Positions 4,854 through 44,026 of a DNA stretch of 46,221 nucleotides are shown piece after piece. The stretch comes from a virus. The stretch's first letter is position 1, and each line of letters opens with the position of its first letter. The DNA lies in the IMG/VR virus record IMGVR_UViG_3300046171_000260, positions 1 through 46,221 of that record; one strand, given 5' to 3'. A program made the position numbers and the translations under genes. The notes beneath the pieces are model-generated. The model was not told where the DNA came from. It did no database searches and saw only the letters and a list, made by a program, of their open reading frames with translations.

Positions 4854-6388
4854 TGGCAGGTGTCGCCTCCGCCGCTGTTGTCTCAGGTGAACTGATCATC
4901 GGCTTAGACGATGGTCGGATCATCCGGGCCGGCTATGTCCAGGGTCCTACGGGCAGAACCGGACCCGAAGGCGCTATCGGAGCGACCGGCCAACGCGGCA
5001 TGGATGGCAACACCATCCTCAGCGGTGCGGATAAGCCCAAACCTGACGCCGGCAAAGAAGGCGACTTCTGGATCAACACGCGCGACTGGTACATCTACGG
5101 CCCAAAAACCTCAGGGCAATGGGGAACCGGCACTTACATGCTGGGTCCCAAGCACTACTTAAAAAACAGCCGGGACAACCAGGGTGGTGGCGGAACCGCA
5201 CCGTCTTCGGAGTCTGGTGGCGGTGGCACCGGTTCTGTCTTCTCTAACCAGGTTTTTCTGTCTGGGACCGGCAGAGCAATAACCGCTCCGGGCGGCAACA
5301 TCATCCCCGAGGGCAAAAACCTCTCGGTCCAGAGCAACCTCAACAAGTGGATTGAGAACTCACTCCGCGCTCTCGACACAAAGCTTCCGGTAGCGGTCGT
5401 CGACAGCCTGCCAGGCACCGGCCAATACGAGGGTGATTTAGTCCTATTTGAGGGCAAGCTCTACGTCTGGGCCGGCAGTGATTGGGTAAAAGTCACCTCT
5501 GACGGCGGCGCCCACGTTGCCCCTAACCCGCCAGTACCAGCGGAGGAGGGGCGGCTCTGGTTCTCCAACGACGAAACCGACCTCACCCTCTACATCTATG
5601 ACGGTGCAGTGTGGGTGCCTGCATCACCACCGGTCAGCCTGGATGGCATCAACACCACGATTGCCGGTATTGACGAGGAGTTGATGACGATTAATCGCAA
5701 TGTCGCGATTAACAAGAGTGAAGTTGACGAACAGCTGTTTGATTTCCAAAAAGACCAACAGCGGCAAGATGAGCGTTTGGACGCTCTGGAGAGCAACAGC
5801 GGTGGCGATGACTTTTTACCGACAGCCGGTGGTGAGCTGAAAGGCACGCTGCAAATCAACGGCAGCATGGACAACAAGATTGATCCATTGCTTTGCAGGG
5901 CCGACGGTTACTACATGACCTTTGGCGTTACCAAGACCGGAGAAGTTTTAGCGGGCACCGCACCAGCATTGCCGTTTATGGCTGTTGACGGCTGGCACGT
6001 TGTCACCAAGGGCTATCTAGACAGTCGGGTTCCTGAGCAGGGTCTATTCCATGAGACGTGGTGGACATTTAGAGCGTCTGCTGATCGCAGTGACTGCGAC
6101 AAAGGGGAGTTTTGCGCAGATGACGGCGACTTCTTTATGAGCGACAAAAACGAAGACAACCATTCATGGGGGCCGTCAATTGCCGGTGGCCGTAGCACGC
6201 AAATGTTTGTCACGATCTACTCCTCAGAGGGCAAGCTGTGCCACACATACGAGGTCAACAAAATCCATTTTCACGAGAAGTACACCAAGAAATACGTTAC
6301 TGAATTTGACTGGACTTGGTCACACGTCTCCAATGCCCTAGTTGATGGGGCTAAGTACAAAATCGTCGTCCCAGGCTTCCTTACCTGA
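4799..6388 (+). CDS. Collagen-like fibre protein, first of three paralogs
   Basis: A 529-residue structural protein with a very strong Shine-Dalgarno site (GGAGGAGAAGGAG at about 4779-4791). Residues around 48-70 are a short collagen-type Gly-X-Y run (GPTGRTGPEGAIGATGQRG), known from phage fibres as a trimerising stalk. Two Gly/Ser-rich linkers follow. Later come the module LTLYIYDGAVWVPASPPVSL, a coiled-coil stretch, a LPTAGGELKGTLQI module and a VVTKGYLDSRV motif typical of fibre shafts. The end is a probable receptor-binding head closing with YKIVVPGFLT. The gene lies among head genes ahead of the scaffold, so it may be a head fibre and not a tail fibre. The next two genes are paralogs of its C-terminal half. 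Confidence 0.75.
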   Translation: MPDAYTQSPRSQNSEDRLMAGVASAAVVSGELIIGLDDGRIIRAGYVQGPTGRTGPEGAIGATGQRGMDGNTILSGADKPKPDAGKEGDFWINTRDWYIYGPKTSGQWGTGTYMLGPKHYLKNSRDNQGGGGTAPSSESGGGGTGSVFSNQVFLSGTGRAITAPGGNIIPEGKNLSVQSNLNKWIENSLRALDTKLPVAVVDSLPGTGQYEGDLVLFEGKLYVWAGSDWVKVTSDGGAHVAPNPPVPAEEGRLWFSNDETDLTLYIYDGAVWVPASPPVSLDGINTTIAGIDEELMTINRNVAINKSEVDEQLFDFQKDQQRQDERLDALESNSGGDDFLPTAGGELKGTLQINGSMDNKIDPLLCRADGYYMTFGVTKTGEVLAGTAPALPFMAVDGWHVVTKGYLDSRVPEQGLFHETWWTFRASADRSDCDKGEFCADDGDFFMSDKNEDNHSWGPSIAGGRSTQMFVTIYSSEGKLCHTYEVNKIHFHEKYTKKYVTEFDWTWSHVSNALVDGAKYKIVVPGFLT

Positions 6389-8653: not shown

Positions 8654-8922
8654 CACAGGCCCGACCAGGGCATGACGGCGTGGCTGGACCCCGGCCCTTT
8701 CGGTCCAAGGTTTTTCTTTACCGGATGTTGGCCGGGATTTTCATTGTCGAAGCTGGGTTTTTGGCATTTGCCTTTGCAAAGTGTGCTCAGAGCATTGAGG
8801 CAACACCTGATGCGACGGTGGCTAGTAAGTGTCCAAAGGTGGGCGATAGGGCGGAAACGCTTTTTGTGGCGGCTATTTCGACGACGCTAAGCCTCTTGAG
8901 TGGCGTCGACAAACCTAATTAG
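8650..8922 (+). CDS. Small membrane protein, holin-like
   Basis: A 90-residue protein that starts with GTG in a GTGA overlap with the fibre gene. It has a clear hydrophobic helix at residues 21-43 and a second hydrophobic segment near residues 69-86, separated by a polar loop with two cysteines. Two helices and a small size would suit a holin, which opens the inner membrane for the endolysin. However, it sits in the head region and far from the endolysin gene at 29251-30441, so the assignment is tentative. It could instead be a small virion or membrane protein. The last codons overlap the perfect palindrome ACCTAATTAGGT (8913-8924). Confidence 0.55.
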   Translation: MTQARPGHDGVAGPRPFRSKVFLYRMLAGIFIVEAGFLAFAFAKCAQSIEATPDATVASKCPKVGDRAETLFVAAISTTLSLLSGVDKPN

Positions 8923-8924
8923 GT
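8913..8924. promoter_or_regulatory. Perfect 12-base palindrome of the intergenic operator family
   Basis: ACCTAATTAGGT is a perfect palindrome at the junction between the membrane protein and the scaffold gene. A second family element, ACCTATTTAGCT, follows at 8932-8943. Both lie within 60 bases of the scaffold start. I see no convincing -35/-10 pair here, so any role in control is inferred from the matching elements elsewhere. Confidence 0.45.
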
Positions 8925-8971
8925 GTTATTGACCTATTTAGCTAAGATTTACGTGCAACCCTTACTCGCTG

Positions 8972-35347: not shown

Positions 35348-35599
35348 TCAACCGCCGGGAGTGGTCACGTATTCGGAGTTCGGCTGACAGATAGGAGGTG
35401 GCAGCTGAACGGGTTGCGGCCCGTACATGTAGGGCTGAGGCTGCGGCGGGTACGGCACGTAGACGTACTGGACCTGCGGCTGCGGATAGGCATTGATCGG
35501 CCCGCTCCGCTGATATTGCGAGCTGTAGGGAAGCTGCTGGGCGTTAGCCCCGGGCGCCATCAAACCGAACAGGGCGACGGCGAGGAATGAACGGCTCAC
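35348..35599 (-). CDS. Secreted Pro/Tyr/Gln-rich small protein
   Basis: An 83-residue protein starting with GTG in a GTGA overlap with the previous gene. Residues 1-20 (MSRSFLAVALFGLMAPGANA) are a clear signal peptide with a cleavage site after ANA. The mature part is almost entirely Pro, Tyr, Gln and Val (QVQYVYVPYPPQPQPYMYGP), an extended chain and not a fold. An o-spanin would be Pro-rich and periplasmic too, but there is no lipobox cysteine. Its place among replication genes is odd for a lysis protein, so it may act in the periplasm during infection. Function unknown. Confidence 0.62.
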   Translation of the reverse strand: MSRSFLAVALFGLMAPGANAQQLPYSSQYQRSGPINAYPQPQVQYVYVPYPPQPQPYMYGPQPVQLPPPICQPNSEYVTTPGG

Positions 35600-35826
35600 A
35601 CCAACCCACCTTTGGCGAGGCGGTAGCTGAGAGTGTCGAGCAGCTCGCGGGCACACTCGTGCATGACCTTCGGATAGCCATCCTTGGTGGCGTACCTAGG
35701 GTCTTTCTCTGCTAGCAACTCAGTCAGGTAGCAGAAGGCGCGATCAAGATCGTCGTCGGCCTTTGAGATCTCCCGTTCGTGGAGAGCGGTCTCGGAGTCT
35801 TCGGCCCAGCGGTAAAGAGCAGTCAC
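35596..35826 (-). CDS. Small acidic hypothetical protein, first after an operator-promoter
   Basis: A 76-residue helical protein (MTALYRWAEDSETALHEREI, ending LLDTLSYRLAKGGLV). GTG start at 35826. A good promoter with a palindrome in its spacer lies 30-60 bases upstream (35856-35885), so it heads a transcript that runs into the secreted protein gene and polA. I recognise no family. Confidence 0.62.
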   Translation of the reverse strand: MTALYRWAEDSETALHEREISKADDDLDRAFCYLTELLAEKDPRYATKDGYPKVMHECARELLDTLSYRLAKGGLV

Positions 35827-35855: not shown

Positions 35856-35885
35856 AAGTTAGCAACCTAACTAGGTAGCTGTCAA
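35856..35885 (-). promoter_or_regulatory. Promoter with palindromic operator in its spacer
   Basis: On the minus strand: -35 TTGACA (35885-35880), 18-base spacer, -10 TAACTT (35861-35856). The spacer holds ACCTAGTTAGGT (plus strand ACCTAACTAGGT at 35865-35876), an almost perfect palindrome placed where a bound repressor would block RNA polymerase. It points toward the polA operon. Confidence 0.72.
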
Positions 35886-36205
35886 CCACGAAAAAGCGGC
35901 GCGGGCGTTTTTGTGAAGATCAGAGGCTCGGTATCGGTCTTGAGCTTGCGCAGCTCAAAGAACCCGGCGAAGTCGTCGGGCTCCTCGTTCATGAGCTTCC
36001 GCGCCATGCGACTGACGTGGTTGTTGTTGAGCTTGTAATCCTTCACCGAGTTGGTGGTGTTGATCGCCAGCTCGTAGCGCAGCACCTCCCAGATGGCCTT
36101 GGCCCCCCACCGGTCAAACCCCTTGGCCTTGAGCTTCACCGCCAGCATGCGGAACTGCTCGAAGACCTCAGGGGTTTTCAGCGCAGAAAGTGTCAAAGGA
36201 AGCAT
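35882..36205 (-). CDS. Conserved phage protein of unknown function
   Basis: A 107-residue protein. The blocks FEQFRMLAVKLKAKGFDRWG, AKAIWEVLRYELAI and YKLNNNHVSRMARKLMNEEP recur in many phages as a conserved hypothetical family; the conserved tail is DDFAGFFELRKLK. The Asn-rich and Arg-rich centre suggests DNA binding, but this is inference. It lies between an HNH gene and the polA operon promoter. Confidence 0.72.
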   Translation of the reverse strand: MLPLTLSALKTPEVFEQFRMLAVKLKAKGFDRWGAKAIWEVLRYELAINTTNSVKDYKLNNNHVSRMARKLMNEEPDDFAGFFELRKLKTDTEPLIFTKTPAPLFRG

Positions 36206-36232: not shown

Positions 36233-36793
36233 TCATGCCACCCCCAGTGCACGCTCGTGCGACCAGCCACGCTTTATCCGCCCACAGACAGTGCTTGGGT
36301 TCAATCCCAACTCTTCACACCACTGGTTTTGCGTCTTGGTAACTCCTTTAACGGTGAGCAGCTTGCTGTTTGTGTAAGCAAGCGCTTCCTTCATCGACAG
36401 CTCCATCTCGGTGACGCGGTGCCAGAGGGTCGGGGTAGGAATTTTGTACTCCTCGGCCCAGTCTTGGAGGCACTTAGTTACGCCATCTACGTCAAATAAG
36501 CGGTTATCCCGCTTGTTACGGGCGTTTTCGGCAGGCAGCACCCACCGGCAGTTTTCCCGGCAGTAAGGCCCGTCATTATCTATCCGGTCCAGCTCGTGCT
36601 CATCGCTTGGCCGGTTGCCCATATCTTTCAAGAAAGACAGCAGGCTGTCGTTCCACTCTGAGCAGATCGTTATCCCCCGACCGCCGTAGTTTCTGTAGGC
36701 GCTGTTATTGGGGTTATTGCATCGCGCACGCATGCCGTTCCAAACGTGATAGATCGGGGTCCCGGTCATCCCGTGAAATTCTTTCTCTTTCAC
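36233..36793 (-). CDS. HNH-type homing endonuclease with tandem HTH repeats
   Basis: A 186-residue nuclease. The core has the pattern VWNGMRARCNNPNNSAYRNY, GGRGITICSEW and then HELDRIDNDGPYCRENCRWV, ending ENARNKRDN; the cysteines probably hold a zinc. Two related helix-turn-helix repeats follow (DVDGVTKCLQDWAEEYKIPT and TVKGVTKTQNQWCEELGLNP), likely used for target recognition. GTG start at 36793 lies in a GTGA overlap with the upstream RHH gene, so the nuclease rides on that transcript. It is selfish DNA of the homing type. Confidence 0.85.
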   Translation of the reverse strand: MKEKEFHGMTGTPIYHVWNGMRARCNNPNNSAYRNYGGRGITICSEWNDSLLSFLKDMGNRPSDEHELDRIDNDGPYCRENCRWVLPAENARNKRDNRLFDVDGVTKCLQDWAEEYKIPTPTLWHRVTEMELSMKEALAYTNSKLLTVKGVTKTQNQWCEELGLNPSTVCGRIKRGWSHERALGVA

Positions 36794-36942
36794 AGCGCCT
36801 CCTCAGCTTTGATGCCGAGCGCTATCAGATGCTCGACTTCACGGGAGACGGGGCGCCGACCTTCCTTAGCGCGATCTAAAACGATCTTGGCTAGTTCAGG
36901 TTCAAGTAGGCCCTGAACTCGTACTTTTAGGTGCGATGTCAT
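36790..36942 (-). CDS. Ribbon-helix-helix DNA-binding protein
   Basis: A 50-residue protein with ATG at 36942. The sequence follows the Arc/CopG ribbon-helix-helix plan exactly: a beta strand (HLKVRVQGLL), helix one (PELAKIVLDRAKEG), a turn with RRPVS, and helix two (REVEHLIALGI). These proteins bind short palindromes as dimers of dimers. It is transcribed away from the primase-helicase gene, and the 90-base space between them carries two divergent promoters and copies of the palindrome family. That is the arrangement of a phage repressor gene, such as P22 arc/mnt. Repressor function is inference from layout. Confidence 0.78.
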   Translation of the reverse strand: MTSHLKVRVQGLLEPELAKIVLDRAKEGRRPVSREVEHLIALGIKAEEAL

Positions 36943-36964
36943 GGCATTGCTGTAGCACTGGTAG

Positions 36965-36994
36965 AGCATACCTAACTAAGGGTTGCTCTGGCAA
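36965..36994 (-). promoter_or_regulatory. Promoter for the RHH gene, overlapping a palindrome
   Basis: On the minus strand: -35 TTGCCA (36994-36989), 18-base spacer, -10 TATGCT (36970-36965). The spacer contains CCTTAGTTAGG (36971-36981), one member of the palindrome family. The -35 box is shared with the spacer of the opposite promoter. Confidence 0.62.
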
Positions 36995-37011
36995 GGTTAC
37001 TCAGCTAAGTT
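36983..37011 (+). promoter_or_regulatory. Promoter for the primase-helicase gene, overlapping a palindrome
   Basis: -35 TTGCTC (36983-36988), 17-base spacer, -10 TAAGTT (37006-37011). The element TTACTCAGCTAAG covers the end of the spacer and the -10 box. It faces away from the RHH promoter and its start point would lie about 15 bases before the primase-helicase ATG. Confidence 0.55.
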
Positions 37012-37033
37012 CAAACTCGGTAATTAGAAAGAG

Positions 37034-39322
37034 ATGCCAAACGGGTTGAACGGCAAGCACCATGCTGCTTTTAAGGGCTTGCCTGAGGGACCGCACTACT
37101 GCTGGGTCCAGGACAAGGCACCGAAATATACGGGCTGGAATCAGCCGGGCAACCTGAAGACACCGCAGGAAATACTTGAGGCAACACCTCCTAGTGGCTT
37201 GCGCCCCAACGGGTTTGGGATGGTGAGCGGTCGATGGTCAGGTGTGATGGCGGTGGACTTCGACGCCAATCCCGACGATCTAGAGCAGACCGAGCGCACC
37301 TTCCGCGCCGTGACGGGCAGGCCAAGTGACGACCTACCTCCCTCCGCCACCGTGATCAGCGGCAGGCCGGGCCGGCGCCGAGTTTTGCTGCGCATCGACC
37401 CGCAATGGAACTCGCTGCTTTCGGGTTGGAGCGCAAAGTTGCAGGACTTGGAGTTCAGGTGGGAGTGCGGCTGGGATGAAGAGGGCGGCCCCAACCCCAA
37501 ACCGATTCAATCAGTGATCTGCGGCGAGCATCCCAAGAGTTCTGATTGGCACTTCCGGTGGATGGAGGGTGCCAGCGCGGAGCAGGTCGGAATTGCTGAG
37601 GCACCAACGTGGTTGATCGGCGCAATGATCCGCCAGTTTGGCGTTGATCAGGGCTTTGAAGAGGGCAAGCTCGAGGGCGGCGGGGGCCAGAAGCAGGAAG
37701 GCCCGCAGCCAATCGACAGCTGCTCAACCAAGCGGCGGATCCGATTAGTGCAAGAAATGTCGGCGTATTGGCCATGCCGAGGCGGCGCCAAAGGCACTCG
37801 ATTCCAGGCCAGCTACGAGGTGGACGGCTATCGGTCACTGTTGGCCGCGCTTTGGCACGAGTTCGGTGAGGACGCGGTGCCGATCCTGGAGCCCACCGAC
37901 TGGTTCAAAAACAGTGAGGACTTTGGCTGCAGCGGCGACCTGCTCAAGGCCATGAAGTCGGTCGCTAAATCAAAGAAGCGCAAGGGAGCCCAAGCCAACA
38001 TGGGCACCCTCGTTCACCTGGCGCGCCGTACTGAAGTAAGCGACGGGGTTACAACAGTCAAATTCGACGAGCCACCGTGGCCCTTCCCCAAGGATCTGCT
38101 GCCACCTACCGAGATTGAGGTGAAAGAGGTGGCCAAAGAGGTCACCCACACCCTCACCCAGCTCAAGGAAAACCTGCAGTACATCGATGAGCTGGAGCAA
38201 CCGGCTGCGCGGGAGGTTGCCTATCAGCGGCTGCAGAAGAAACTGGGGTGTACGGAGCGAGAGATGAAGACGTTGCTGCGCCACCTGGATCAGGAGAACG
38301 ACCCCGCCGTTGGCGGCAAGTGGAGCGATGTGGTCAAGAACGCCAAGCCGATCATCCCGGCGATCGAGCGATTGCTACCGGCCAACTGCGTGACGATGGT
38401 GGCTAGCGATGGCGGTGTGGGCAAATCGGTGCTGATCTACCGGATTGCCGAAGCCGCGGCCTACGGGCGCAAGGTATTTGGGCAGCTGCAGGCCAATAAA
38501 GGCAATGTTTTGATCGTTCAGACCGACGAAAGCGACAGCAACCTGCAGCAGAAAAGCAAAAAGATGGATTTTGCCGACCCCGGCGGCCATATCCATGTGG
38601 AGTTTGCCTTCAACGCGGGGATGTTCCCCGATCTGCGCAACTGGATCCGCAACCACCAGGCGAAATACGTGCTGATGGACAGCTTCGGGTCGCTGTTTGC
38701 CGGTGGTGCTGAGCTGTCGGACAGCGAAGCGGGGATGTACCTCTACAAGCTCAACAAGATCGCGGCGGAGGAGGGGTGCGCCATCTTGATCACCCACCAC
38801 CTGCGGAAGCAGGACAAAAGCAAGAACGGGGTGCGGGATCGCGTCACCATGGGCGATCTCTACGGCAGCGCCTACATCGTTAATGGCTGCTCTGATGTCT
38901 GGGGCATCACGGTGGGAGAGGACGACCAGTTCAGCCTGACCATCCTCAAGGATCGGTCTGGTGTGAGCCAGCGGGGCGACACCTTCGCGCTGGCGGGCAG
39001 CAAAGAGGATTTGAGCTTTGAGCTGAGTGGGATGAACGCCGATGAGAAGGGCGTCGAGACCCTGAAAAAGACTGAAAAAGCCGTGCTCAAAGCGCTGCAA
39101 TCTCGTGGGCCTGAAGGTGCCCTAACTCAGTCAGAATTGGCAGCTCACTTAGGCAAGTCACAGCAAACAGTGGCCAGGGTGCTGGCGGAGCTGTACGTGG
39201 GGAGCTGGGGGATAGAGCGCAAGAGGAGGGAGAGCACCGGCGGTAAGCCCCCTTGGGAGTATTGGGGAGGGGGGTATGGAGGGAAAGTGAGTGGAAGTGG
39301 GAAGAACCCAGTGAGGGACTAG
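37034..39322 (+). CDS. Primase-polymerase fused to a RecA-like replicative helicase
   Basis: A 762-residue replication protein. Residues about 1-200 resemble a PrimPol primase, with the metal-binding D75-F-D77 in GVMAVDFDANP, then TVISGRPGRRRVLLRID and SVICGEHPKSSDWHF. The centre (210-430) is a helical linker. From 440 on is a RepA/KaiC-like ATPase: Walker A MVASDGGVGKS (K464), Walker B YVLMDSFGSL (D549), and a sensor-like LITHHLRKQDKSKNG. The C-terminus has a winged helix (LTQSELAAHLGKSQQTVARV). It should prime and unwind DNA for the family A polymerase. A preceding AAAGAGATG gives a fair ribosome binding site. Repeats right behind it may be its origin. Confidence 0.9.
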   Translation: MPNGLNGKHHAAFKGLPEGPHYCWVQDKAPKYTGWNQPGNLKTPQEILEATPPSGLRPNGFGMVSGRWSGVMAVDFDANPDDLEQTERTFRAVTGRPSDDLPPSATVISGRPGRRRVLLRIDPQWNSLLSGWSAKLQDLEFRWECGWDEEGGPNPKPIQSVICGEHPKSSDWHFRWMEGASAEQVGIAEAPTWLIGAMIRQFGVDQGFEEGKLEGGGGQKQEGPQPIDSCSTKRRIRLVQEMSAYWPCRGGAKGTRFQASYEVDGYRSLLAALWHEFGEDAVPILEPTDWFKNSEDFGCSGDLLKAMKSVAKSKKRKGAQANMGTLVHLARRTEVSDGVTTVKFDEPPWPFPKDLLPPTEIEVKEVAKEVTHTLTQLKENLQYIDELEQPAAREVAYQRLQKKLGCTEREMKTLLRHLDQENDPAVGGKWSDVVKNAKPIIPAIERLLPANCVTMVASDGGVGKSVLIYRIAEAAAYGRKVFGQLQANKGNVLIVQTDESDSNLQQKSKKMDFADPGGHIHVEFAFNAGMFPDLRNWIRNHQAKYVLMDSFGSLFAGGAELSDSEAGMYLYKLNKIAAEEGCAILITHHLRKQDKSKNGVRDRVTMGDLYGSAYIVNGCSDVWGITVGEDDQFSLTILKDRSGVSQRGDTFALAGSKEDLSFELSGMNADEKGVETLKKTEKAVLKALQSRGPEGALTQSELAAHLGKSQQTVARVLAELYVGSWGIERKRRESTGGKPPWEYWGGGYGGKVSGSGKNPVRD

Positions 39323-39326
39323 GAAC

Positions 39327-39454
39327 CTTTTACTCAAGGGGTGGTCTTTTACTCACGGGGGTTAGATCTTTCACTCATTTTCTAGTTTTACTTATTGGAC
39401 TTTTACTCGTAGGTAGATCGTAGTGAGGGCAGTGGGTTTAATGACTTTTACCCA
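39327..39454 (+). repeat. Cluster of CTTTTACTCA repeats, candidate replication origin
   Basis: Six copies of a ten-base unit on one strand: CTTTTACTCA at 39327 and 39346, CTTTCACTCA at 39368, GTTTTACTTA at 39385, CTTTTACTCG at 39400 and CTTTTACCCA at 39445. Spacings are 19, 22, 17, 15 and 45 bases. The stretch is non-coding and directly follows the primase-helicase gene. It resembles the iterons at which phage and plasmid initiator helicases open DNA. A C-rich run and a T-run close it (39456-39486). Confidence 0.65.
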
Positions 39455-39510: not shown

Positions 39511-39544
39511 TTGAGGGATATGGTGGCTATGTACATAACTAGGT
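39511..39544 (+). promoter_or_regulatory. Promoter-like site with palindrome before the 39552 gene
   Basis: TTGAGG (39511-39516), 17 bases, then CATAAC (39534-39539), inside the element ACATAACTAGGT (39533-39544). The start point would be almost at the ATG (39552), giving a leaderless or very short-leader transcript. TAACTCAGTTG (39485-39495) is a second element 25 bases upstream. Confidence 0.42.
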
Positions 39545-40436: not shown

Positions 40437-40448
40437 ACCTAACTAGGT
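40437..40448. promoter_or_regulatory. Palindromic element before the second RHH gene
   Basis: ACCTAACTAGGT, identical to the operator copy at 35865-35876, ends six bases before the ATG of the RHH gene at 40454. Its AGGTGATC also serves as a ribosome binding site. If an RHH protein binds it, this gene could be autoregulated. Confidence 0.55.
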
Positions 40449-40453
40449 GATCA

Positions 40454-40717
40454 ATGTCGGAAGAAACAGCCAACAGCCGCATCGCCTGCGGCGCTGCTAT
40501 CCGAGATAGGCCCAGCGGAGGCACTCAACGTCGCAACCACTGGAATAGCGATAAGCGCACCCGCAATTTGAGCCTGACCGACGCTGCCTGGGATTCGCTC
40601 GACGCCATCGCTCAGCACTGGGGGATGAACCGGAGCGAGGTCTGCGAGGTGGTGGTGCGGTACGCACAGACCAAGCAGCTCGACCTGCCGGAAGAACGGA
40701 TGGCCCTCCTTAATTAA
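40454..40717 (+). CDS. Second ribbon-helix-helix DNA-binding protein
   Basis: An 87-residue protein. The C-terminal half is a CopG-like RHH fold: strand (TRNLSLT), helix one (AAWDSLDAIAQHWG), turn (MNRS) and helix two (EVCEVVVRYAQTKQ). The N-terminal 35 residues are basic and flexible. An exact 18-base stretch near its start (ACAGCCAACAGCCGCATC at 40466) also occurs inside the gene at 39552 (39921), pointing to exchange between the two. It lies between two palindrome elements, one 5' (40437) and one 3' (40726), so it is a second candidate regulator of that element family. Confidence 0.75.
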   Translation: MSEETANSRIACGAAIRDRPSGGTQRRNHWNSDKRTRNLSLTDAAWDSLDAIAQHWGMNRSEVCEVVVRYAQTKQLDLPEERMALLN

Positions 40718-40718
40718 G

Positions 40719-40747
40719 TTGACAGGTAGCTAGCTACTTAGTAGAGT
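40719..40747 (+). promoter_or_regulatory. Promoter with perfect palindrome in its spacer
   Basis: -35 TTGACA (40719-40724), 17-base spacer, -10 TAGAGT (40742-40747). The spacer contains GTAGCTAGCTAC (40726-40737), a perfect 12-base palindrome. It drives the frame-broken gene at 40773. The layout matches the polA-side promoter at 35856-35885. Confidence 0.75.
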
Positions 40748-40772: not shown

Positions 40773-41369
40773 ATGCCTCTCCTTAGCTCCACCGTCAAAG
40801 AAGCCTTCGAGGCTCGCAAGTCTGCGTCCAGCGGTGGAAACTACCTGAATCCAAGCTCCGTGAGCGAGGGTGACAAACTGCGCATCACCTTCTTGGGTGA
40901 TGACAGCCTCGCCGGCTGGCAGTGCTGGGCCAGTAAGGCTCGACGGGGGACGCATCCCTCTCCGCTTTGCTTCTGAGCCCACACCTGCTGACATCAAGAC
41001 CCGCGCTGCTGAAGAAGGCGCCACCGCCGATCCCTCCGAATGCAAGGCGTTCTATGCCTTCGCGGTGTGGAACTACGACGATGAGCGCGTCCAGGTCTTC
41101 CAGTTCCACCAGACCGGCATTGCAGCACCGATCATCGAAGCTCTGAGCGACGAGGAGATCGAAGCTGAGCCCGGCGCCTACGACTTCGTTCTGCAGCGCC
41201 TCAGGCACCTGGCATGGATAAGCGCTACAGCGTCACCCCCATGCCCGGTAAGCGCCGTCAGCCCAAGATCGAATCCCAAGTCGACGCTGCCTGGCAAAAG
41301 GTGGTGGAAGCCGGCTTTGACCTCAAGGCTCTCCTAATGGGTGGAGATCCTTTCAAACCCGCTTTCTGA
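40773..41369 (+). CDS. Probable DNA-binding protein, reading frame broken twice
   Basis: The protein starts MPLLSSTVKEAFEARKSASS and continues with GDKLRITFLGDDSLAGWQCW in one frame up to about 40930. The rest of a coherent sequence lies one frame on (IPLRFASEPTPADIKT, ECKAFYAFAVWNYDDERVQV, IEALSDEEIEAEPGAYDFVL). From about 41200 it returns to the first frame (APQAPGMDKRYSVTPMPGKR, then GFDLKALLMGGDPFKPAF, stop 41369). Removing one base near GGCTCGAC (40937-40944) and adding one near 41195 gives a single chain of about 198 residues. Such proteins beside phage replication genes may bind single-stranded DNA, but I cannot name the family. The breaks may be sequencing errors or true mutations. 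Confidence 0.6.
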
Positions 41370-43606: not shown

Positions 43607-43693
43607 GTCTCGAGCGAAAACGGCTACGCGGCGGGGCGGAAATTTTCAGATCTCGAGCGGAAACGGCTATAGATCTCGAGCGAAATCGGCTAT
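43605..43693 (+). repeat. Three 23-base direct repeats, iteron-like
   Basis: Three copies of a unit with core TCTCGAGCG, a short A-run and CGGCTA: 43605-43627, 43648-43670 and 43671-43693. The last two are directly tandem and the first is 20 bases away, giving offsets of 43 and 23 bases. The spacer and the sequence behind (43713-43729) share GAAATTTT. An AT-rich stretch follows to 43817. The region is non-coding. It could be an origin, a regulator array or a site for a DNA-binding protein; three copies is low for an origin. Confidence 0.7.
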
Positions 43694-43817
43694 AGATATA
43701 CGCCCGATTCGCGGTTTGAAATTTTGAATCACCGGCCCTGAGAAAAACGGGCAGTTTATATCTCTGAAAAATGCAATCGTTATTTGTAACTAATCCCAAC
43801 TGTCGGAGAAATTACTA

Positions 43818-44014: not shown

Positions 44015-44026
44015 ACCTAGTTAGGT
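44015..44026. promoter_or_regulatory. Palindromic element, exact reverse copy of the operator
   Basis: ACCTAGTTAGGT is the reverse complement of the copies at 35865 and 40437. It is followed by TAGGTAGGGACTAGG, which repeats the TAGG half twice more. No clear promoter boxes are seen in the direction of the next gene. Confidence 0.5.

Follow-up and report, generated by a model that had tools for sequence, protein, structure and literature searches.

The 91-bp gap between the gene of a 50-amino-acid (aa) ribbon-helix-helix (RHH) protein, RHH50, and a primase-helicase gene of an uncultivated phage carries two putative interlocked promoters and a pair of operator-like palindromes. We put the chance at about even that this gap is a local autoregulated control region at which RHH50 would repress both replication operons. 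Sequence and comparison establish the genes, the promoter geometry, the paired palindromes, and the placement of RHH50 opposite either of two helicase families. The outcome is a regulatory map that can be tested, for a phage group that is uncultivated and looks related to marine picocyanobacterial siphoviruses; in those viruses, understanding of early gene control and of lysogeny is poor.

Gene order around the RHH50 gap

The window analyzed here is the whole stretch of DNA, which comprises one virus record (IMGVR_UViG_3300046171_000260; 46,221 bp). The virus looks cyanophage-like and appears to represent an uncultivated group that is kin to marine picocyanobacterial siphoviruses: the large terminases of this virus and of the Synechococcus siphovirus KBS-S-2A share 44% identity, and other head genes are also related. 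No DNA-level match to the polA-helicase region was found among 50,697 isolate phage records, and close relatives of the helicase were not found in viral contigs. RHH50 leads a leftward operon, and the helicase gene is the first of a rightward operon with the order helicase-o250-o87-SSB-exonuclease; membership in both operons was assigned from strand and gene order. The features of the control region are as follows.

36790-36942, minus strand: RHH50, 50-aa Arc/CopG-like RHH gene, leading the leftward operon that includes polA
36943-37033, no strand: divergent control region of 91 bp between RHH50 and the helicase gene
36965-36994, minus strand: putative RHH-facing promoter TTGCCA-18-TATGCT, with the geometry found again in L002, L006, and L054
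36970-36981, no strand: operator-like site 1, ACCTAACTAAGG, one mismatch to ACYTANNTARGT, in the RHH-facing spacer and abutting the RHH-facing -10
36983-37011, plus strand: putative helicase-facing promoter TTGCTC-17-TAAGTT, of weak consensus, with equivalents in L002 and L054
36999-37010, no strand: operator-like site 2, ACTCAGCTAAGT, one mismatch to ACYTANNTARGT, overlapping the helicase-facing -10
37034-39322, plus strand: primase-helicase gene with Prim-Pol (PF09250, E value of 4e-5) and AAA_25 (PF13481, E value of 7.4e-21) matches in Pfam

Other features of the region were recorded in passing. Directly downstream of the helicase gene, five CTTTTACTCA-like repeats (at most one mismatch) lie within 128 bp (39327-39454) and possibly represent iterons or an origin. 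The SSB-like gene (40773-41337) is apparently split over two frames near 40870, by a sequencing error or a real break; its orthologue in L002 is a single 199-aa frame. Repeated GATCTCGAGCGAAANCGGCTATAG-like units occupy an intergenic stretch at 43607-43817.

RHH50 is a predicted DNA-binding protein with three orthologues

RHH50 orthologues were detected in three metagenomic relatives: those of L002 and L006 are 41% and 51% identical to the window protein, and that of L054 is 60% identical to that of L006. The L006 (24.9) and L054 (22.9) proteins exceed the Pfam RHH_1 gathering score of 20.5. The window protein alone had no match in Pfam, PHROG, or NCBIfam and is placed in the RHH family because it is orthologous to the L002 and L006 proteins (41 to 51%). 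By the curated-model match of two orthologues, RHH50 thus qualifies as an RHH (Arc/MetJ/CopG) protein, and DNA binding is predicted. Residues K6, R8, and Q10, in the presumed DNA-contacting strand, are invariant among the orthologues, and the 50-aa start is favored over a 59-aa start, since the alignment of the orthologues begins at its Met. In a low-confidence AlphaFold model (pLDDT of 64), helices 15-26 and 34-49 fit the RHH fold, while the strand is absent from the model; a fold search with this model was uninformative. Profiles of RHH50 and of o87 found nothing convincing among PDB sequences, and no profile similarity was seen between RHH50 and o87, a second RHH protein of the window. No further relatives of RHH50 were found among isolate phages, and other scans leave the total at four phages.

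Two putative interlocked promoters and two operator-like sites share the gap

The putative RHH-facing promoter consists of a -35 hexamer TTGCCA (36994-36989), an 18-nt spacer, and a -10 hexamer TATGCT (36970-36965), with the ATG (36942) 22 nt further on, and it clears a 9-of-12 consensus scan. Its helicase-facing counterpart (TTGCTC at 36983-36988, a 17-nt spacer, TAAGTT at 37006-37011, and the ATG at 37034 again 22 nt on) has 6 of the 12 consensus bases and falls below that threshold. The two are interlocked, each -35 lying inside the spacer of the other. Hexamer pairs of the form TTGNNN-16/18-TANNNT placed 14 to 30 nt from both starts occurred jointly in 0.04% of Markov shuffles of the gap, and two ACYTANNTARGT-family sites within 91 bp have a chance of 0.0005; both values are optimistic, since the motif and geometry classes were chosen after the sequences had been viewed. 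Four marine relatives were examined afterwards for the motif (L047, L048, L050, and L051), and one, L054, for the geometry. Both copies in the window gap are imperfect, with one mismatch each, and the gap holds no perfect palindrome with 5-bp arms.

An earlier note on this DNA had described a 50-residue RHH gene diverging from the helicase gene, overlapping divergent promoters, and palindrome members in both spacers. The open reading frames with their start codons, both hexamer pairs, and the two palindrome members (36970-36981 and 36999-37010) were all found in place, and recurrence in the gaps of relatives strengthens the promoters and the palindromes.

The arrangement recurs opposite a different helicase family

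RHH50 diverges from a helicase gene in all four phages (the window, L002, L006, and L054). The helicase family differs, being AAA_25-type with Prim-Pol in the window and DUF3987-type in the other three. That RHH50 keeps its place despite this change suggests that the control unit, not the enzyme, is held by selection. The RHH-facing geometry (TTG, spacer of 17 to 18 nt, TANNNT, 21 to 23 nt to the start) is present in 4/4 gaps and the helicase-facing geometry in 3/4; L054 was found only after the geometry had been defined. The hexamers, spacers, and distances to the start in the relatives are listed below.

L002 gap: RHH-facing TTGCGT-17-TAGAGT-21; helicase-facing TTGACG-16-TAAGTT-18
L006 gap: RHH-facing TTGTCA-17-TACGGT-23; helicase-facing, none by the geometry rule
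L054 gap: RHH-facing TTGACA-17-TAGGTT-22; helicase-facing TTGCAA-17-TAGGTT-24

The L002 gap likewise contains exactly two family sites, and the counterpart of site 2 (at 6336) likewise overlaps TAAGTT. The L054 record (49,434 bp) contains only two perfect CAACC-N6-GGTTG palindromes, both in the RHH50 gap and 27 bp apart. One covers the helicase-facing -10 and the start of the RHH-facing -35, and the other covers the RHH-facing -10 and part of the helicase-facing -35, mirroring the window, where the sites are 29 bp apart. In contrast, the record of L055, which encodes this type of helicase but no RHH50, contains no perfect CAACC-N6-GGTTG copy. This contrast is our best evidence that operators at the gap would go together with RHH50. 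The L054 record has an extra ACCTTCGTAGGT copy, which falls within a coding frame and was taken as chance. A private RHH50 half-site, CAACYY/RRGTTG, gave P values of 0.11 with three gaps and 0.003 with four; it overlaps the conserved TTG of the -35 and is therefore not claimed.

Among marine relatives without RHH50, the helicase gene is preceded by TTGNNN-17-TANTAT-24 in 5/6 gaps examined. A leftward TTGAC promoter was identified by the geometry rule in four of six such gaps, and a fifth (L014; TTGACG-17-TATGTT) was read by eye on a longer sequence. Most relatives are contig fragments, and the absence of a gene from a short record is weak evidence.

The gene after RHH50 varies

The gene that follows RHH50 overlaps it by 4 nt in the window, L002, and L006; in the window its product is an HNH nuclease, in L006 an endonuclease-like protein. 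These features would suit an antitoxin-like repressor paired with a translationally coupled nuclease gene. However, the downstream genes are mutually unrelated, none matches a toxin family, and in L054 RHH50 is directly followed by o107, with the nuclease absent. The nucleases therefore look like insertions, and the conserved partner expected of a type II toxin-antitoxin system was not found. The L054 order in particular weakens this explanation, which we consider very improbable. The slot itself (HNH nuclease at 36233-36793 in the window, unassigned 222-aa protein at 6561-7229 in L002, endonuclease-like gene at 5000-5476 in L006, empty in L054) looks like a nuclease insertion spot.

The palindrome family extends beyond the gap

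In the whole window, ACYTANNTARGT has 22 matches with at most one mismatch, compared to 1.3 expected; 13 of them are intergenic, compared to 0.33 expected for 4,719 bases of intergenic-like sequence. The related ACCTANNTAGGT has 4 perfect copies and, with up to two mismatches, 28 (8.3 expected), a number reached by 0/100 shuffles. Members outside the gap, and the o87 gene, are listed below.

8913-8943, no strand: two family members, ACCTAATTAGGT and ACCTATTTAGCT, at a junction within the structural gene cluster
35865-35876, no strand: perfect copy of the family, ACCTAACTAGGT, intergenic between the leftward genes 35882-36205 and 35348-35656
39533-39544, no strand: family member ACATAACTAGGT, immediately upstream of the likely o250 ATG (39552)
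40437-40448, no strand: perfect family member ACCTAACTAGGT, immediately upstream of the o87 RHH gene
40454-40717, plus strand: o87, second RHH protein, with an 8-member alignment and present in all relatives covering the region
40708-40747, plus strand: family member CCTTAATTAAGT, followed by TTGACA-17-TAGAGT as putative promoter of the SSB-like gene
44015-44026, no strand: perfect family member ACCTAGTTAGGT, intergenic

Among the features that count against the RHH50 model, the window sites are imperfect, the family occurs at many other promoters, and some relatives carry the family without RHH50. The reader of the palindromes, here and genome-wide, could instead be some other regulator of the phage, o87 being the likeliest (or its neighbor o250); RHH50 would then have a different or minor role, and the gap would be one node of a phage-wide regulon. 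Both o87 and o250 are kept throughout the phage group, and the AlphaFold core of o87 resembles CopG, Arc, and other RHH chains (about 0.8 Å on CopG, with weak Foldseek E values). Marine relatives that lack RHH50 show an excess of the family: 42 sites in G006 compared to 5 in the reversed control, and 23 compared to 2 in G007. G006 (48.1 kb; the record of locus L008) has no RHH50, and its sites must therefore have a different reader. It is thus unlikely that RHH50 generally reads the whole family. Across genomes, sites lie upstream of the SSB-like gene in 7/8, o106 in 6/8, o87 in 5/8, and in the helicase gap in 5/8, while polA (0/8) and the exonuclease gene (0/6) have none; 6% of random 150-mers contain a site. 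In the later-found marine relatives L047, L048, L050, and L051, sites flank o87 on both sides in all. The control KBS-S-2A, which has structural genes in common and lacks o87 and o250, showed 1 site compared to 1.9 expected. On the other side, the GC-rich relatives L043, L044, L045, L054, and L055 have o87 and o250 with no clear enrichment of the family, and the paired palindromes of L054 are confined to the RHH50 gap. We regard a regulon read by o87 or o250 as a serious explanation, though one that we would not favor. In the window, RHH50, o87, and o250 are all candidate readers. A broader scheme is unlikely. In it, the uncultivated cyanosiphovirus-like group would have a phage-wide regulon of palindromic operators read by a conserved small RHH protein; this regulon would govern the replication operons and perhaps the choice between lysis and lysogeny, and RHH50 would be a second repressor, specific to its lineage, that has taken over the node at the helicase promoter.

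In place of the ACYTANNTARGT family, the five GC-rich relatives carry some ACGTAG-type repeats in their SSB-promoter spacers, around o87 and the SSB-like gene; an excess of ACGTA was seen in L044, L054, and L055. As a shifted operator of these relatives, ACGTANNTACGT is suggestive at best, with 0 to 3 matches per locus. A different RHH-like gene lies further along the leftward operon of the marine relatives L008 (6712-6927), L009 (6287-6619), L013 (7101-7340), and L014 (4704-4907); those of L008 and L014 are recognized by Pfam models of RHH proteins.

Lysogeny

The earlier note had read the gap as a possible genetic switch that, with the serine recombinase, suggests a lysogeny decision of a new kind. 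On that reading, RHH50 would be a prophage repressor that silences early replication and acts together with the serine integrase. The window does encode a large-serine-recombinase-like protein (PHROG integrase, E value of 2e-45), and the gap has the layout that such a switch would have: the repressor-like gene points away from an early replication gene, and each promoter carries an operator-like site. However, five other records (G002, G006, G014, G015, and G016) contain the recombinase while RHH50 was not detected in them by profile search, although two of the five, G002 and G016, are plainly fragments. RHH50 itself turned up in four phages only. The integrase and RHH50 thus do not co-occur across the group: the recombinase is found in records with and without RHH50. 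A polA profile run against 84,980 species genomes of bacteria and archaea returned distant relatives only and no prophage of the group, an absence that is not proof. These results speak against a lysogeny decision at the gap, which we consider improbable. The cyanosiphovirus KBS-S-2A was reported to be without integration elements (PMC3751600); in the related cyanosiphovirus S-LBS1 an integrase is present and lysogeny was proposed from it, not demonstrated (PMC6157547).

Proposed regulation and comparison with known systems

Regulation of both promoters by RHH50 is plausible from the arrangement described above. Two sigma-70-type promoters would lie back to back, and RNA polymerase could probably fit on only one at once. 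The two putative palindromic operators, spaced 29 bp in the window and 27 bp in L054, each lie on one -10 and beside or on the -35 of the other promoter, and both would be bound by an RHH dimer, in the simplest case that of RHH50 itself. As this protein accumulates, it would shut both promoters and act as a negative-feedback brake or timer on expression of the helicase and the polymerase. Activity of the two promoters, RHH50 as the protein bound there, repression on binding, and the role in timing are our inferences.

The cyanosiphovirus KBS-S-2A has terminase and other head genes related to those of the window but lacks RHH50, o87, o250, the window-type polA, and the palindromes. As a mechanism, autorepression by a small RHH protein at divergent promoters is of a familiar type. 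Arc and Mnt of phage P22 (immI) are phage-encoded RHH repressors of about 50 aa that act at divergent promoters, and RHH50 is likewise a phage-encoded RHH protein of about 50 aa at divergent promoters. Sequence kinship with them is undetectable beyond the RHH family, the partner is an antirepressor gene in P22 and a replication helicase gene here, and evidence for lysogeny was not found for the window phage group. In plasmid copy control, the small RHH protein CopG represses its own gene and keeps a replication gene in check, and two RHH50 orthologues match Pfam RHH_1, the CopG family. There, copG shares an operon with repB, whereas RHH50 and the helicase gene diverge from interlocked promoters.
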